DNA of 64,000 nucleotides from Flavobacteriales bacterium (GTDB lineage: Bacteria > Bacteroidota > Bacteroidia > Flavobacteriales_F > PHOS-HE28): contig JAIOIH010000087.1 of NCBI GenBank assembly GCA_019912395.1, positions 62,001 to 126,000 on the forward strand, written 5' to 3'. The notes below the pieces were generated by a model that saw only the letters and a list, made by a program, of their open reading frames with translations, did no database searches and was not told the origin of the DNA. The position numbers and the translations under genes were made by a program. Below are positions 1,373 to 6,776 of this stretch, one piece after another (position 1 is the first letter of the stretch; each line of letters opens with the position of its first letter).

Positions 1373-4300
1373 TTACTGGCCTTTCAGGGCGTTGAGGTGG
1401 ATCACGGTGAGTGCGAGTTCGTAGCGGACGCGCAAGTGCTCGGCTTCGATGCGCCGCGCTTGTTCGATGCCTTGGATGAATTCCAGGTAGCCCGCGTCGC
1501 CGTTGAGGTAGGCGCGTTCGGCGTCATTGCGAAGCGTGTTGGCCAGGGCAGCGCCGGAGGCTTCGTAGTAGCTCAAACTCTCCCGCAGTTGGGCGAGCCG
1601 GGCTTGCGTGCGGGCCAGTTCCGTACTTCGACTGCGGCGCAGTTCCTCCAGTTGCTGCTGCGCGATCTCGCTCCGCAATCGGGCAGCCCTGGTGCGCGCG
1701 CCTTGGCCACTCCCGGGCAACGGGATTGACGTGCCGATGAGGTAGCCCGTGAAGGGCGATGCCCCATCGATGGTCTGGTAGAAGCCGCCACCTTGCAGGC
1801 TCGGGGCCCATTGGCTGCGTTGCATTTTCCATTCTGCTTCGGCAACGCTTGCACGTTGCTTTTCCGAGGCGAGCACCGGATCAGTGCCCCCGCCGGGATC
1901 GGGTGCATGGGCGGTTTTCCGCAACGCGGAAGTATCCGGTACCGCGCTGCCGATCGGACCGGTCCAGCGTTCCAGTTCCGCAGCGAATACGGCCATGTCC
2001 GCTTCCGCTTTTTGCAATTGCACACGCGCTTGGTCGGCGCTGCTTTGTGCGCTCACCTTCTCCAGGCGACCGCTTTGGCCGGTCTCGAATTTCCGCGCGG
2101 CGAAGGAAGCGAGGGTGCTGAAGGAGCTGTCCGCACGTTGCGAAAGGCGGACCTCCTCCAAGCCCATGGCCCATTGCAGGTAGGCGCTTGCCACGCTTTC
2201 CCGCACCGCCGCTTGGATGCTGGCGCGGTCCGCTTCCGCCAGTCGCACGCTTTCCTTCAGGTAGCGGGCGCGTTGTGCGATGGCCGTGGGGAAGGGGATG
2301 CCGGTCGTGGCCTGCACATTGATGTCGTTGATCGCGCTGTTGATCTGCCCGCCCTGCAGTTGAGCGTTCAGCGGATCCAGTTGGAACGCGGTCTTCCGCA
2401 GGGCTTCCTGTTGCTGCACTTCCAGCTCCGCCGCCGTGATGGCCGGATAATTCTTCAACGCCCGAGCCACCGCGCTGTCCTGTGTGAGCACGGGGGGTTG
2501 GGCCTGCGCTATTCCACCGAGGAACAGGAAGGCCGTGATGGACGCTACGGCCGTCGGTGTGCTTCCCCTCCGGCGCTTCCGCCGCGTGAACACAAGGTGA
2601 TAGAGCACCGGCAGCACGGCCAAGGTGAGCAGGGTGGAAGTGATGAGGCCACCGATGACCACCGTGGCCAAGGGACGCTGCACCTCGCTGCCGGGGCTGG
2701 TGCTGATGGCCATGGGCAGGAAGCCGAGCGAGGCCACGGCGGCTGTGGCCAGCACGGGACGCAGACGCGCCAAAGTGCCGCGCACGACGCGTTCGGTGAC
2801 ATCCTCCACGCCTTCTCGTGTGAGCTGGTTGAAATAACTGATGAGCACAATGCCGTTGAGCACCGCTACGCCGAAAAGCGCAATGAAGCCCACGCCCGCG
2901 CTGATGCTGAAGTCCAGCCCGCGCAGACTCAACGCGAAGACACCGCCCACCGCTGCCATGGGCACCGCACTGAAAATGATGAGCGCCTCGGTGAAGGAGC
3001 GGAAGGCGAAGAAGAGCAGCACGAAGATCAGCGCCAACGCCAGCGGCACGGTGAGCAGCAGGCGGGCACTGGCCTCTTGCAGGTTCTTGAAGGTGCCGCC
3101 GTAGCTGACAAAATAGCCCGTGGGCAGCTTCAATTCCTGGTTGATCAAGGCTTGGATGTCCTCTGCCGTGCCTTGGATGTCCCGGCCGCGCACGTTGGTC
3201 TCCACCACGATGCGGCGTGCGCCATCCTCCCGACTGATCTGTGCGGCGGCGCTTTGGAAACCGATCTCGGCAAGCTGGCCCAGGGGCATCTGTGAACCGT
3301 TCGGCAACGGAACGAGGATGTTCTTCACCTTGTCCGCGTCCGCATCACGCATGTCGGCCAAGCGCACCACGAGGTCGAAGCGGCGCTCGCCCTCATACAC
3401 CACACCTGCCTTTCCGCCGGCCAGCGCGGTGTTCAGCACGCGGTTCAGTTCGGCCACGTTCAGGCCGTACTGCGCGATCCGGGCACGGTCGTACTTCACC
3501 ACCAATTGCGGCATGCCCGTCACTTGTTCCACCTTGATGTCCGTAGCGCCGGGCACCGTGCCGATCAGCGCTGCCGCAGCGTTGGCGGTCTTGAACAGTT
3601 CGTCCAGGTCATCCCCGTAGATCTTCACTGCGATGTCACTCTTCACCCCGGCGATCAGCTCGTTGAAGCGCATCTGGATCGGTTGCTCAAAGCTCAGGTT
3701 CATCCCCGGTATCACGCTCAATTTTTTGTTCATCAGCTCGGCCATTTCCTGTCGGTCCGTGGTGGTGGTCCACTGCTTCCTGTCCTTCATCACGATGATC
3801 AGGTCCTGGCTTTCGATCGGCATGGGGTCCGTGGGGATCTCACTGCTCCCGATCTTGCCCACCACTTCCTTCACCTCGGGGAACTCGGCTATCAGGATGC
3901 GGGCCAGTTGGTCGCTTACAGCGATGCTTTGGCTGAGGTTGCTGCCTTGACGAATGGTGACGTTGGTGGCGAAGTCGCCCTCGTCCAATTCCGGGATGAA
4001 CTCGCCGCCCAGCCGGTTGAACACGAACAGCGCAACGGCCATCAGCACGACGGCTCCCGCGACGGCGAAGCGACGATGGCGAAGCAGCCCGCGGAGTTTC
4101 GGCGCGTACCAATCCTGCAGGTGGTGCATCATGCGCTCGCTCCAGCTTTCGCCTTTGGGAACATCCTTGTGCAGGAAGATGGAGACGGCCCAAGGCACGT
4201 AGGTAAGGCTCAGCAATAGCGCACCGATGATGGCGAAGCTTACCGTGAAGGCCATCGGGCGGAACATCTTGCCTTCGATGCCGATCAGCGCGAAAATGGG

Positions 4301-5680
4301 CACGTACACGATGAGGATGATCACTTGGCCGAAGACGGCGCTTTTCATGATGCCGCCCGCTCCGCGAATGGTCTCCGTGTCCAGTTCCGCTCCAGTGAGC
4401 CGCTTGCCCGCGTAGCGTTGGTGCAGCGCGAACATCATCCCTTCCACCACGATCACCGCGCCGTCCACGATGAGACCAAAGTCCAATGCGCCCATGCTCA
4501 TCAGGTTGGCACTTTGCCCGGCGAGCACCATGCAGCCGATGGCGAAGAGCAGCGACATTGGGATCACGCTGGCCACGATGAGGCCCGCACGCCAGTTGCC
4601 GAGCAGCAGCACCAGCACGGCGATCACGATCAGCGCACCCATCAACAGGTTGTGCTCCACCGTGCCGATGGTCTTCTGCACCAGCTTCGAGCGATCCACG
4701 AAGGCATCAACGAACACCCCTTCCGGCAAGCTGTGCTGCACTTCTTCGATCCGTTCCTTCACGGCTGTAACGGTGGCCAGGGCGTTGGCACCCTTCAGCA
4801 TCAGCACCACGCCGCCCACGGCCTCGCCTTCGCCATTGCGCGTCATGGCCCCGTAGCGCACCGCGTGCCCGAAGCGCACCTCCGCCACATCGCGCACGCG
4901 CACCGGGCTGCCGCCGCGCGAGCTGATCACCACGTTCTCCATGTCCTTCAGTGACGTGATCACGCCTTCGCCCCGGATGAAATAGATGTTCGGTCCCTTC
5001 TCGATGTAGCTGCCCCCGGTGTTCGCGTTGTTGTTCTCCAGCGCGGTGAAGACGTCCATCAACGAAAGTCCGGCACCCGCCAACCGGCGCGCGTCCACGC
5101 TTACTTCATACTGTTTCAGCAGGCCACCGAAGCTGCTCACGTCGATCACCCCGGGCACGCCCAGCAGGTGTTTGCGCACCACCCAATCCTGCAGTGTGCG
5201 CAGCTCCAGCAGGTCGTATTGCTCTTTGTGGGCACTGTCCACGGCGAGGGTGTACTGGTAGATCTCGCCGGTGCCGGTGGTGGGAGGGGCGATCTCCGGC
5301 GTGCCATAGCCGGGCGGGATCTGTTCCTGCACCTGCGTGATGCGCTCGGCCACCAATTGCCGCGTGAGGTAGAGCGGCACGTTATCCTTGAACACCACGG
5401 TGATCACGGAGAGGCCGCTGCGCGATACGCTGCGCAGCTCCACCACGTCCGGCAGGTTCTTGAAGGCCTGCTCCAGCGGGAAGGTGATGAACTGCTCCAC
5501 CTCCTGCGTGGCGAGGTTGGGCGCAATGGTGTTCACCAGCACCTGGTTGTTGGTGACGTCCGGCAGCGCGTCGATGGGCAGTTCCGTAACGGACCATGCG
5601 CCCCAGCCGATCAGGGCAAGGAGCAGCAGGCCCACGACGAGCTTGTTGCGTACGGAGAACGAAATGATGCGGTCGATCAT
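1373..5680 (-). CDS. CusA/CzcA-family heavy-metal RND permease fused to a C-terminal TolC-like outer-membrane domain
   Basis: 1435 residues, against about 1040 for a stand-alone CusA/CzcA. Residues 1 to about 1040 are a typical HME-type RND permease: an N-terminal helix, periplasmic loops, and the TM4 motif DFGLIVDGAVIVVE that carries the acidic proton-relay residues of the CzcA/CusA family. After the last helix comes a basic stretch (RRKRRRG), a hydrophobic segment ending GGIAQAQ (about residue 1058), and then about 375 residues that look like an outer-membrane efflux (TolC/CzcC) protein with long alpha-helical repeats and coiled coil. Such CusA-TolC fusions are known in Bacteroidota. The hydrophobic segment with AQA looks like an internal signal peptide with a signal-peptidase site, so the channel domain may be released by cleavage (inference). 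It sits between the His-rich protein (upstream) and the adaptor. Confidence 0.92.
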   Translation of the reverse strand: MIDRIISFSVRNKLVVGLLLLALIGWGAWSVTELPIDALPDVTNNQVLVNTIAPNLATQEVEQFITFPLEQAFKNLPDVVELRSVSRSGLSVITVVFKDNVPLYLTRQLVAERITQVQEQIPPGYGTPEIAPPTTGTGEIYQYTLAVDSAHKEQYDLLELRTLQDWVVRKHLLGVPGVIDVSSFGGLLKQYEVSVDARRLAGAGLSLMDVFTALENNNANTGGSYIEKGPNIYFIRGEGVITSLKDMENVVISSRGGSPVRVRDVAEVRFGHAVRYGAMTRNGEGEAVGGVVLMLKGANALATVTAVKERIEEVQHSLPEGVFVDAFVDRSKLVQKTIGTVEHNLLMGALIVIAVLVLLLGNWRAGLIVASVIPMSLLFAIGCMVLAGQSANLMSMGALDFGLIVDGAVIVVEGMMFALHQRYAGKRLTGAELDTETIRGAGGIMKSAVFGQVIILIVYVPIFALIGIEGKMFRPMAFTVSFAIIGALLLSLTYVPWAVSIFLHKDVPKGESWSERMMHHLQDWYAPKLRGLLRHRRFAVAGAVVLMAVALFVFNRLGGEFIPELDEGDFATNVTIRQGSNLSQSIAVSDQLARILIAEFPEVKEVVGKIGSSEIPTDPMPIESQDLIIVMKDRKQWTTTTDRQEMAELMNKKLSVIPGMNLSFEQPIQMRFNELIAGVKSDIAVKIYGDDLDELFKTANAAAALIGTVPGATDIKVEQVTGMPQLVVKYDRARIAQYGLNVAELNRVLNTALAGGKAGVVYEGERRFDLVVRLADMRDADADKVKNILVPLPNGSQMPLGQLAEIGFQSAAAQISREDGARRIVVETNVRGRDIQGTAEDIQALINQELKLPTGYFVSYGGTFKNLQEASARLLLTVPLALALIFVLLFFAFRSFTEALIIFSAVPMAAVGGVFALSLRGLDFSISAGVGFIALFGVAVLNGIVLISYFNQLTREGVEDVTERVVRGTLARLRPVLATAAVASLGFLPMAISTSPGSEVQRPLATVVIGGLITSTLLTLAVLPVLYHLVFTRRKRRRGSTPTAVASITAFLFLGGIAQAQPPVLTQDSAVARALKNYPAITAAELEVQQQEALRKTAFQLDPLNAQLQGGQINSAINDINVQATTGIPFPTAIAQRARYLKESVRLAEADRASIQAAVRESVASAYLQWAMGLEEVRLSQRADSSFSTLASFAARKFETGQSGRLEKVSAQSSADQARVQLQKAEADMAVFAAELERWTGPIGSAVPDTSALRKTAHAPDPGGGTDPVLASEKQRASVAEAEWKMQRSQWAPSLQGGGFYQTIDGASPFTGYLIGTSIPLPGSGQGARTRAARLRSEIAQQQLEELRRSRSTELARTQARLAQLRESLSYYEASGAALANTLRNDAERAYLNGDAGYLEFIQGIEQARRIEAEHLRVRYELALTVIHLNALKGQ

Positions 5681-5865: not shown

Positions 5866-6246
5866 CTACATCCGGGGCGGCTGCCAGATATCACTCAACC
5901 TGTTCGGGAGCAGTATGTGCTCGTCCGTCGGGGTCAATTCGAGGTCCAGCGCATTCAGGATGGCAAGATCCGCTGCGGGAGGATCGGGGAGGCGGGCTTG
6001 AATGGTTTGGGCGGCACAATGATTATCGGCATGGAAGGGGAGCCCGCTATGGTGATGGTCCTGGTCGGCGTGATGCCCTCGGATATAGTGCTCCGACATG
6101 AACTCCAACCAATTCATGTGTCCATTTGCCTGATGCTCCGATAAATGCTGGAACAGGGTAGGCAACTTCAGGAGTTGATGCGCCTCCATCGCATTGGAGA
6201 GGAAAATCCCCAAAAGAAGAATGGCTATTCGCCGATGCATCCGCAT
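5866..6246 (-). CDS. Small exported His-rich protein at head of metal-efflux operon
   Basis: 126 residues with an N-terminal hydrophobic signal (IAILLLGIFLSNAMEAHQ) and a histidine-rich centre (SEHYIRGHHADQDHHHSGLPFHADNH is the region; at least ten His within about 35 residues). No catalytic domain is recognisable. Short exported His-rich proteins often precede CusA-type operons in Bacteroidota, and this one is 185 bp upstream of the CusA-TolC gene on the same strand. A role in periplasmic metal binding or sensing is plausible but inferred only from composition and position. An alternative start is the Met two codons in (6240). Confidence 0.65.
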   Translation of the reverse strand: MRMHRRIAILLLGIFLSNAMEAHQLLKLPTLFQHLSEHQANGHMNWLEFMSEHYIRGHHADQDHHHSGLPFHADNHCAAQTIQARLPDPPAADLAILNALDLELTPTDEHILLPNRLSDIWQPPRM

Positions 6247-6400
6247 GTTGCTTCGGCAAAGGTAGATCCGGGCCTGCCCATGGAAGTGACGGATATCACC
6301 TGCGATGCTCCCAAGACCTTATCCCCCGGTTTGGAACGAGCGTTGCGATACGCCCATGGATTGCCGGAAGGGGTTAGGGACCCGGACTTTCGCCGAGGTC
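6247..6400. other. Intergenic stretch before the tRNA-tail array, no gene seen
   Basis: No convincing coding frame. The right end (about 6385-6400) carries ctttcgccgagg, a partial copy of the terminator hairpin of the neighbouring 100-bp repeat, so the array probably extends here in decayed form. Together with the array this gene-free stretch runs to the tRNA at 6704. Confidence 0.5.
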
Positions 6401-6700
6401 TTCGTGGTCCCGCAGGGGCTTCCCTCGACTCGTACCTCGCTCGGGATAAACTTCTCGCCCCAGGTCTAAACGAAGAAGCCCCGGCTTTCGCCGAGGCTTT
6501 CTGTGATCCCGCTGGGGCTTCCCTCGACTCGTACCTCGCTCGGGATAAACTTCTCACCCCAGGTCTAAACGAAGAAAGCCTCGGCGAAAGCCGAGGCTTT
6601 CTGTGATCCCGCTGGGGCTTCCCTCGACTCGTACCTCGCTCGGGATAAACTTCTCACCCCAGGTCTAAACGAAGAAAGCCTCGGCTTTCGCCGAGGCTTT
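6401..6700 (-). repeat. Tandem array of three 100-bp units, each carrying a tRNA-Lys 3' tail plus terminator hairpin
   Basis: Units at 6401-6500 (diverged), 6501-6600 and 6601-6700. The last two are identical except for the hairpin loop. Read on the minus strand each unit holds a terminator-like hairpin, a palindromic segment (TCCCGAGCGAG...GTCGAGGGA) and then GCCCCAGCGGGATCACAG, which is the exact 3' tail of the adjacent tRNA-Lys plus three bases. The fourth copy of that tail is the real tRNA end (6701-6720). The loop is cgaaag in the 6575-6600 hairpin and ctttcg in the 6675-6700 hairpin, so one 26-bp hairpin is the exact reverse complement of the other. The palindromic part resembles the widespread TCCTTCGAC...GCTCAGGA repeat of bacterial genomes (recollection). 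Confidence 0.9.
6675..6700 (-). terminator. Hairpin terminator of tRNA-Lys
   Basis: Perfect inverted repeat AAAGCCTCGG / CCGAGGCTTT around a CTTTCG loop, beginning 4 bases after the tRNA 3' end on the transcribed strand. The 3' T tract is short (TTT then C), so efficiency is uncertain. The same hairpin recurs at 6575-6600, which would give tandem termination. Confidence 0.65.
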
Positions 6701-6703
6701 CTG

Positions 6704-6776
6704 TGATCCCGCTGGGGCTCGAACCCAGGACCCTTACATTAAAAGTGTAATGCTCTACCAGCTGAGCTACAGGATC
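6704..6776 (-). tRNA. tRNA-Lys (anticodon UUU)
   Basis: 73-nt cloverleaf read on the minus strand. Acceptor GATCCTG pairs with CGGGATC with discriminator A, the D arm is AGCTCAGCTGGTAGAGC, the anticodon stem TTACA/TGTAA encloses CTTTTAA (anticodon TTT), and the T arm is GGGTTCGAGCCCC-like. The 3' CCA is not encoded (the following bases are CAG). A strong promoter lies 39 bases upstream and a hairpin lies immediately downstream. Confidence 0.96.

Follow-up and report, generated by a model that had tools for sequence, protein, structure and literature searches.

An RtT-like tandem array behind tRNA-Lys(TTT) in a Flavobacteriales bacterium and its possible origin as an integrase-less, T-loop-linked mini-island

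The window analysed here, a stretch of 64,000 nucleotides on contig C62 of a Flavobacteriales genome (a draft of 87 contigs, in which the unit count given below could be off), carries an intact tRNA-Lys(TTT) gene on the minus strand (6703-6776), called by ARAGORN. On the 3' side of this gene, and on the same strand, lies an array of three ~100-bp units, with a fourth tail at its far end. Along the minus strand each unit opens with the tail GCCCCAGCGGGATCACAG and continues with a terminator hairpin (13-bp arms) and a linker; the left arm, CCTGGGGY, then leads into a REP-like palindromic core, GAGAAGTTTATCCCGAGCGAGGTACGAGTCGAGGGAAG, which adjoins the next tail. The core has the consensus GAGAAGYYYRTCCCG...CGGGAAG and is identical in all three copies. 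The repeated tail corresponds to the last 18 nt of the tRNA end (6701-6718, including 2 nt past the tRNA). In unit 1 it is followed by a terminator hairpin (6673-6702; folding energy dG -30.5, z -5.6 for 6665-6720) with perfect arms and the loop GAAA on the transcribed strand; by the left arm CCTGGGGT (6656-6663), the complement of the first part of the tail copy; and by core 1 (6618-6655; C62:68618-68655), located by pattern search as were cores 2 (6518-6555) and 3 (6419-6456). The tail GCCCCAGCGGGATCACAG recurs at 6601-6618, in direct junction with the core at the T-loop position, and again at 6501-6518. The terminator hairpin of unit 2 (6573-6602) has the same arms as that of unit 1 and its loop inverted to TTTC (transcribed strand), and that of unit 3 (6474-6502) has imperfect arms and the loop GAAA, with the left arm CCTGGGGC at core 3. 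Past the distal tail GCCCCTGCGGGACCAC (6404-6419) lie a decayed hairpin (6377-6403), in the position of the terminator of the congeners' tRNA-Lys(CTT), and a small ORF of 126 aa with no Pfam match (5866-6246, minus strand), which anchors the locus. Two open frames with repeated peptide motifs cross the array (6145-6606, plus strand; 6225-6557, minus strand); they are probably not genes and are comparable to the small tpr ORF within the E. coli tyrT repeats. A single 1435-aa ORF elsewhere in the window (1373-5680, minus strand) combines an AcrB-family pump (residues 5-1030) with an outer-membrane efflux domain (1268-1434).

A first-pass annotation had described a tandem array of the tRNA-Lys tail and its terminator at this place, and its tail copies, spacings and hairpin pair were all recovered. 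The units had been said to recur at exactly 100 bp, which held for one spacing of the direct-repeat family, the other being 99 nt. Every unit tail had likewise been equated with the end of tRNA-Lys; the copies at 6601-6618 and 6501-6518 agree with it, but the outermost one matches tRNA-Lys(TTT) at 13 of 15 positions. The main component, the conserved palindromic core present in all three units, had been missed, and this core is the key to the array.

The flipped hairpin reported earlier was confirmed, 6573-6602 and 6673-6702 being exact reverse complements (30 nt, 100%) while the two proximal units share an identical 70-bp stretch between the hairpins. Since the 13-bp arms of both hairpins are perfect, turning a hairpin round changes nothing but its 4-nt loop, from GAAA to TTTC, and the odd unit out is the middle one. 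Equal arms were found in 35 tandem hairpin pairs at the collected loci; 27 of these retain the loop and one, the pair in the window array, has it inverted. Neither the precise inversion nor the cruciform resolution proposed in the first-pass annotation is needed for such a flip, since template switching in yeast has been shown to invert spacers between perfect arms of more than 9 bp, 4-nt and gaa/ttc cases among them (PMC8604942). The window case shares with these the perfect arms and the short inverted spacer; the published cases lie in yeast coding genes, whereas the present one lies in a bacterial terminator within an array. By analogy with the published cases, the loop flip would be a known outcome of template switching that arose as a separate, independent event; it is a rare mutation, outside the system proper.

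The repetition of tRNA tails is not due to chance, since a second tail copy matching at 14 or more of 17 positions was found within 320 nt downstream at 22 of 88 congeneric tRNA-Lys, tRNA-Gln and tRNA-Asp loci (two of the 22, L041 and L048, being an adjoining intact tRNA-Lys(CTT)) and at none of the same loci in upstream controls or with shuffled tails. When the distal tail of the window array (CCCCTGCGGGACCAC) was compared with the congeners, it matched tRNA-Lys(CTT) at 15/15 positions and tRNA-Lys(TTT) at 13/15, which rules out a decayed fourth copy of the unit. In congeners L034, L041 and L048 a spacer separates tRNA-Lys(TTT) from a following tRNA-Lys(CTT). The 126-aa ORF follows tRNA-Lys(CTT) in L041 and L048 and stands directly after tRNA-Lys(TTT) in L047 and L039. 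No other tRNA-Lys was found in the window genome, where a Lys query matched the array and other isotypes alone. Since the distal tail matches the CTT gene and the genome, in its draft form, has no further tRNA-Lys, tRNA-Lys(CTT) has probably been lost here, its body replaced by the array and its 3' end left as the distal tail, as the arrangement in the relatives suggests.

The core was sought in 45 congeners, in 395 Bacteroidia genomes and across about 85,000 species with the strict pattern GAGAAGYYYRTCCCG-N5..35-GGGAAG. There were 30 matches in 18 of the 45 congeners and 47 matches in 30 of the 395 Bacteroidia, with none for the reversed pattern in either sample; the third scan, which alone added YCC to the pattern and so favoured tails, returned 72 stretches. 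A looser pattern with one mismatch allowed was discarded as its matches equalled those of the reversed controls. After removal of repeats 124 distinct cores remained, 102 of them with a tRNA within 900 nt upstream. The tail of the same tRNA follows the core at 13 or more of 18 positions in 94 cores (exactly, 18/18, in 45), and in 92 of these 94 the junction falls on one T-loop base, directly after GTTCGAG (GTTCGAG^YCC). GAGAAG and GGGAAG are the invariant ends of the core. The host tRNAs are of 12 amino-acid types (Lys, Gln, Thr, Asn, Met, Leu, Ala, Asp, His, Arg, Pro and Gly), and the named carriers are mostly Flavobacteriales (Lutibacter, Salinimicrobium, Leeuwenhoekiella, Mesonia, Aquimarina and others), together with some Bacteroidales and a few Patescibacteria bins. 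Of the 22 cores with no detected tRNA, about 10 are at contig edges and about 8 appear to be chance matches in coding sequences (in Streptomyces, Deltaproteobacteria, Rickettsiales and others). Viral contigs gave a single match to the core pattern, and the letters of the core were not found in the published papers searched. The existence and the architecture of this family are secure. The first-pass annotation had called for a search of the genome and its relatives, and tail-plus-core units were indeed found behind many tRNA genes.

Several loci of the family have features of their own. The sole other core of the window genome, behind tRNA-Gln (L005/L302, G000:C75:63900-63990), contains a hairpin insertion nested within it, and its tail copy is decayed. 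At L203 and L139 a further short palindrome (CCTGTGCTGAGC.. or CCTGCCGAAGCTCGTCGAAGCAGG) splits the displaced tail, which looks like the insertion of a second type of repeat there. The cores of L156, L169, L176, L186, L189, L199 and L200 lie less than 100 bp from a contig end; with many cores this close to contig ends, assemblies seem to break at the arrays, which have probably been under-counted.

The confinement of the cores to tRNA genes bears on the suggestion, also made in the first-pass annotation, of a REP-type element spreading with the tRNA end. The palindromic core fits that suggestion, but the cores stand behind tRNAs and show no genome-wide dispersal; the earlier reading had been staked on the unit not occurring genome-wide apart from a tRNA tail, and this check turned out in its favour: pattern searches of the window genome returned four cores, each linked to a tRNA, which excludes a dispersed REP. 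A more specific proposal would have REP elements mobilized by a Y1 (RAYT) transposase that prefers tRNA loops. As in REP elements and BIMEs, the cores are short imperfect palindromes with conserved flanking letters, intergenic and at times tandem, and Y1_Tnp genes occur in 31 of the 45 congeners, with a Y1 transposase in the window genome as well. However, three carriers of cores whose genomes are 94-99% complete (G060, G061 and G026) have no Y1_Tnp match, so that a cognate transposase does not accompany the cores throughout, and RAYT as the driver is largely refuted as a current requirement. REP superfamilies are defined with a GTAG or CGTC tag at one end (PMC3733652), and the present core has neither. 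We consider this proposal highly improbable.

Another possibility is homing by small GIY-YIG nucleases that cut tRNA loops, with the cores as non-coding passengers. In L146 and L177 a GIY-YIG ORF does separate a tRNA from a partial copy of itself, and others stand behind tRNA-Pro, tRNA-Met and further tRNAs in the genus. Yet these partial copies begin at the anticodon loop or vary in their start, rather than beginning at the T-loop junction; G033 has three cores and, as its sole GIY-YIG match, a protein of UvrC length; and the cores show no placement within GIY-YIG elements that would link the two. Homing of this kind is thus an improbable source of the array. The GIY-YIG loci have a structure of their own. 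In L146 (Leeuwenhoekiella polynyae, tRNA-Asn) and L177 (a Psychroflexus MAG, tRNA-Met) the second tRNA copy starts near the anticodon loop and has small palindromes in its loops, and among congeners the ORFs directly follow tRNA-Pro-GGG (L247, L251, L235, L233) or tRNA-Met (L250). Past the ORF, the tRNA-Pro-GGG loci have partial tRNA copies with the anticodon arm swapped for the palindrome TCCCGCC..GGCGGGA, and L233 has three tandem copies of the 5' half of the tRNA upstream, 76 bp apart.

On its left side the core is flanked by a sequence complementary to the next tail, with which it covaries. At 26 congeneric loci the left arm paired with its own tail at a mean of -16.4 kcal/mol, compared with -12.8 for permuted tails, and none of 20000 permutations did as well. 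Among 91 elements, trimmed to a fixed length around the core, the covariation score was 0.235 against 0.112 when shuffled (0/500); relatedness alone can lift covariation above shuffles, but slid versions, which retain the relatedness, reached at most 0.105. Both the outer helix and the inner stem covary across the 91 elements, and column pair 7-37 is GC in 54, AU in 27 and GU in 8 of them. This covariation of the arms could stem from an RNA function.

Tandem repeats behind tRNA-Tyr in E. coli, the tyrT repeats, were first described decades ago, and we know of no agreed explanation of their origin. The tyrV/rttR unit of MG1655 (178 bp) consists of the tail ATCCTTCCCCCACCACCA, a spacer, GGGGAAGGAT, GAGAAG, a long core and the next tail, with tail copies at +159, +337 and +515, and GGGGAAGGAT is the inverse of ATCCTTCCCC. 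The Rfam consensus of RtT RNA (RF00391) has the same outer helix, in which the inverse tail pairs with the tail, and GAGAA is present. Against this model E. coli tyrT scored 134-138 bits; the window gave no match to it at the gathering threshold and none at E<=10. The window contained no known Rfam family at the gathering threshold, and sub-gathering matches (MIR477, BSnc120 and others) were dismissed as weak chance matches to hairpins. The window array is outside the Rfam RtT family, yet it is built to the same plan. Shared by the window family and the E. coli tyrT/tyrV repeats are tandem units behind a tRNA that end in its tail, an inverse tail followed by GAGAAG (GGGGAAGGAT + GAGAAG in E. 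coli), the outer helix of inverse tail and tail, precise empty sites and variable copy number. The E. coli core is much longer and lacks the YYYRTCCCG..CGGGAAG stem of the window family, and its unit measures 178 bp against about 100 bp here, with no terminator hairpin seen inside it. The RtT core was found in 4,695 of 5,426 E. coli genomes, at 1-14 places per genome, and strains with 0, 1, 2 and 3 tyrT units exist; in two empty strains the tail of tRNA-Tyr directly joins the flank that otherwise lies past the last unit. Actinobacillus, too, is reported to have RtT-family RNAs, next to tRNA-Asn and tRNA-Lys (PMC4986893).

These likenesses raise the possibility that the array is preserved by a functional RNA, a minihelix-like transcript hairpin acting as an rtT-like small RNA, a processing decoy or a set of stacked terminators. 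The covariation of outer helix and inner stem agrees with this, as does the pairing of inverse tail and tail in the RtT consensus, whose annotation, in line with earlier work cited in PMC4986893, is that of an RNA released from the tyrT transcript; an attenuator role has been proposed for RtT-like sequences (PMC2965389). In the genus, however, the core is usually preceded by a strong terminator that follows the tRNA, and most tRNA transcripts should therefore end before they reach the core, while the patchy presence of the elements among close relatives and their absence from some E. coli strains mark them as dispensable. Stacked termination, another of the functions first suggested for the array, may be a side effect and leaves the tail copies and the core unexplained. 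We give an RNA function as the cause of the array a modest chance of being right.

The arrangement at tRNA-Asp in the congeners provides evidence of insertion. Empty loci (G029, G001, G062, G025, G027, G058, G010 and G008) consist of the tail, a single terminator and a gene. At the occupied loci of G003 and G061 the tRNA is followed first by a different terminator, next by the core and a copy of the tail (17/17 and 16/17), and beyond these come the terminator and gene known from the empty loci. Because that distal terminator and gene sit directly behind tRNA-Asp in the empty congeners, the distal tail and terminator are the ancestral pair and the proximal pair is new. In a tree of the downstream gene the occupied loci are split by fully supported branches, each beside empty relatives, so the simplest reading of these sequences is two independent gains at the same base. 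The occupied loci in this tree number two and are the sole evidence bearing on direction; single loci cannot prove it, since excision between two tails leaves the same empty site as no insertion at all. tRNA-Gln in G017 and G064 has the same order as the occupied tRNA-Asp. Of the alternatives in the first-pass annotation, the duplication of an attachment site by an integrating element, a reading that is partly borne out, is the one best supported by relatives, through the empty and occupied tRNA-Asp loci, the precise empty tyrT sites of E. coli and the fixed T-loop junction.

Local tandem duplication alone, in which slippage copied tail, terminator and a resident palindrome and neutral decay followed, would require no insertion. 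Units within an array are near-identical including the terminator (in the window and in L116, L119, L121 and L136), and tandem copy number varies in E. coli, both of which such duplication would produce. At tRNA-Asp (G003, G061) and tRNA-Gln (G017, G064), however, the terminators differ while the tails agree at 15-17 of 17 positions, and an age sufficient to scramble the terminator should have scrambled an unselected tail too. The same core and junction base also occur behind 12 tRNA types in separate lineages. As the full account of the array we regard duplication as unlikely; it is weakened as the origin, yet is a likely route of array growth.

Insertion at tRNA genes is well known from genomic islands, in which sequences of the element restore the target and the displaced fragment marks the far end (PMC4383910); in phage Ms6 strand exchange takes place in the tRNA T-loop (PMC1762012). 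As in such islands (Islander type, with an Ms6-like T-loop attB), an element-borne tail would regenerate the tRNA here, a displaced tail lies downstream and the crossover point in the T-loop is fixed (PMC4383910, PMC1762012). The complete tRNA and the displaced 3' fragment have the same orientation, and the empty site corresponds to the distal side both at tRNA-Asp and at E. coli tyrT. In contrast to islands, the units (60-180 bp; about 100 bp here) are tandem and free of genes, the integrase gene included, with a palindrome in place of the island body. The first-pass annotation had noted that an integrase is absent, and a profile search for PF00589 agreed, with no recombinase on contig C62 and seven matches elsewhere in the genome.

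We consider it somewhat more likely than not that the array is an RtT-like, T-loop-linked mini-island lacking an integrase, which inserts, supplies a 3' end and multiplies in tandem. The unit in this model comprises the host tRNA tail, usually a terminator, a linker, the inverse-tail left arm and the core GAGAAGYYYRTCCCG..CGGGAAG, abutting the next tail. It would recombine into the T-loop of the tRNA gene, as tRNA-targeted islands do, and its own tail would replace the displaced 3' end, keeping the tRNA intact and pushing the old tail and terminator downstream. This replacement step is shown by the comparison of loci at tRNA-Asp, and the loci of tRNA-Gln and E. coli tyrT agree with it. A recombinase of host or mobile origin, acting in trans, may recognise as its DNA site the hairpin that inverse tail, core and tail make up. 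Once two or more copies are present, units would be gained and lost through recombination between the repeats of about 100 bp, as the near-identical units and the variable RtT copy number of E. coli suggest, and the comparison with congeners suggests that such exchange may also have removed the adjoining tRNA-Lys(CTT) here, leaving its tail. Several points count against the mini-island. The tail in each unit is that of its own host tRNA, which calls for either per-tRNA lineages or tails acquired on insertion; the two terminators are much alike in many loci, including the window, as plain tandem duplication predicts; and no recombinase gene was found on the contig.

In a wider form of the mini-island reading, protein-free integrative elements of 60-180 bp would exist across phyla, with the T-loop as attachment site, the hairpin of tail and inverse tail as recombination site and a recombinase in trans, and the E. 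coli tyrT repeats would be their first, long-known and unrecognised member. This is a serious possibility that we hold tentatively, at somewhat less than even chances.

The array represents a variant of a kind already known, though little understood. Through it, a locus in an environmental Flavobacteriales bacterium is tied to the tyrT repeats of E. coli, and both receive one testable explanation, insertions at a fixed T-loop base that bring a replacement 3' end. As E. coli strains with 0 to 3 tyrT units exist, the question is directly testable there. If the explanation is true, the tRNA genes of distant bacteria harbour a hidden class of minimal mobile DNA, which would give rise to tRNA gene fragments and new terminators and probably, as here, to the loss of tRNA genes.
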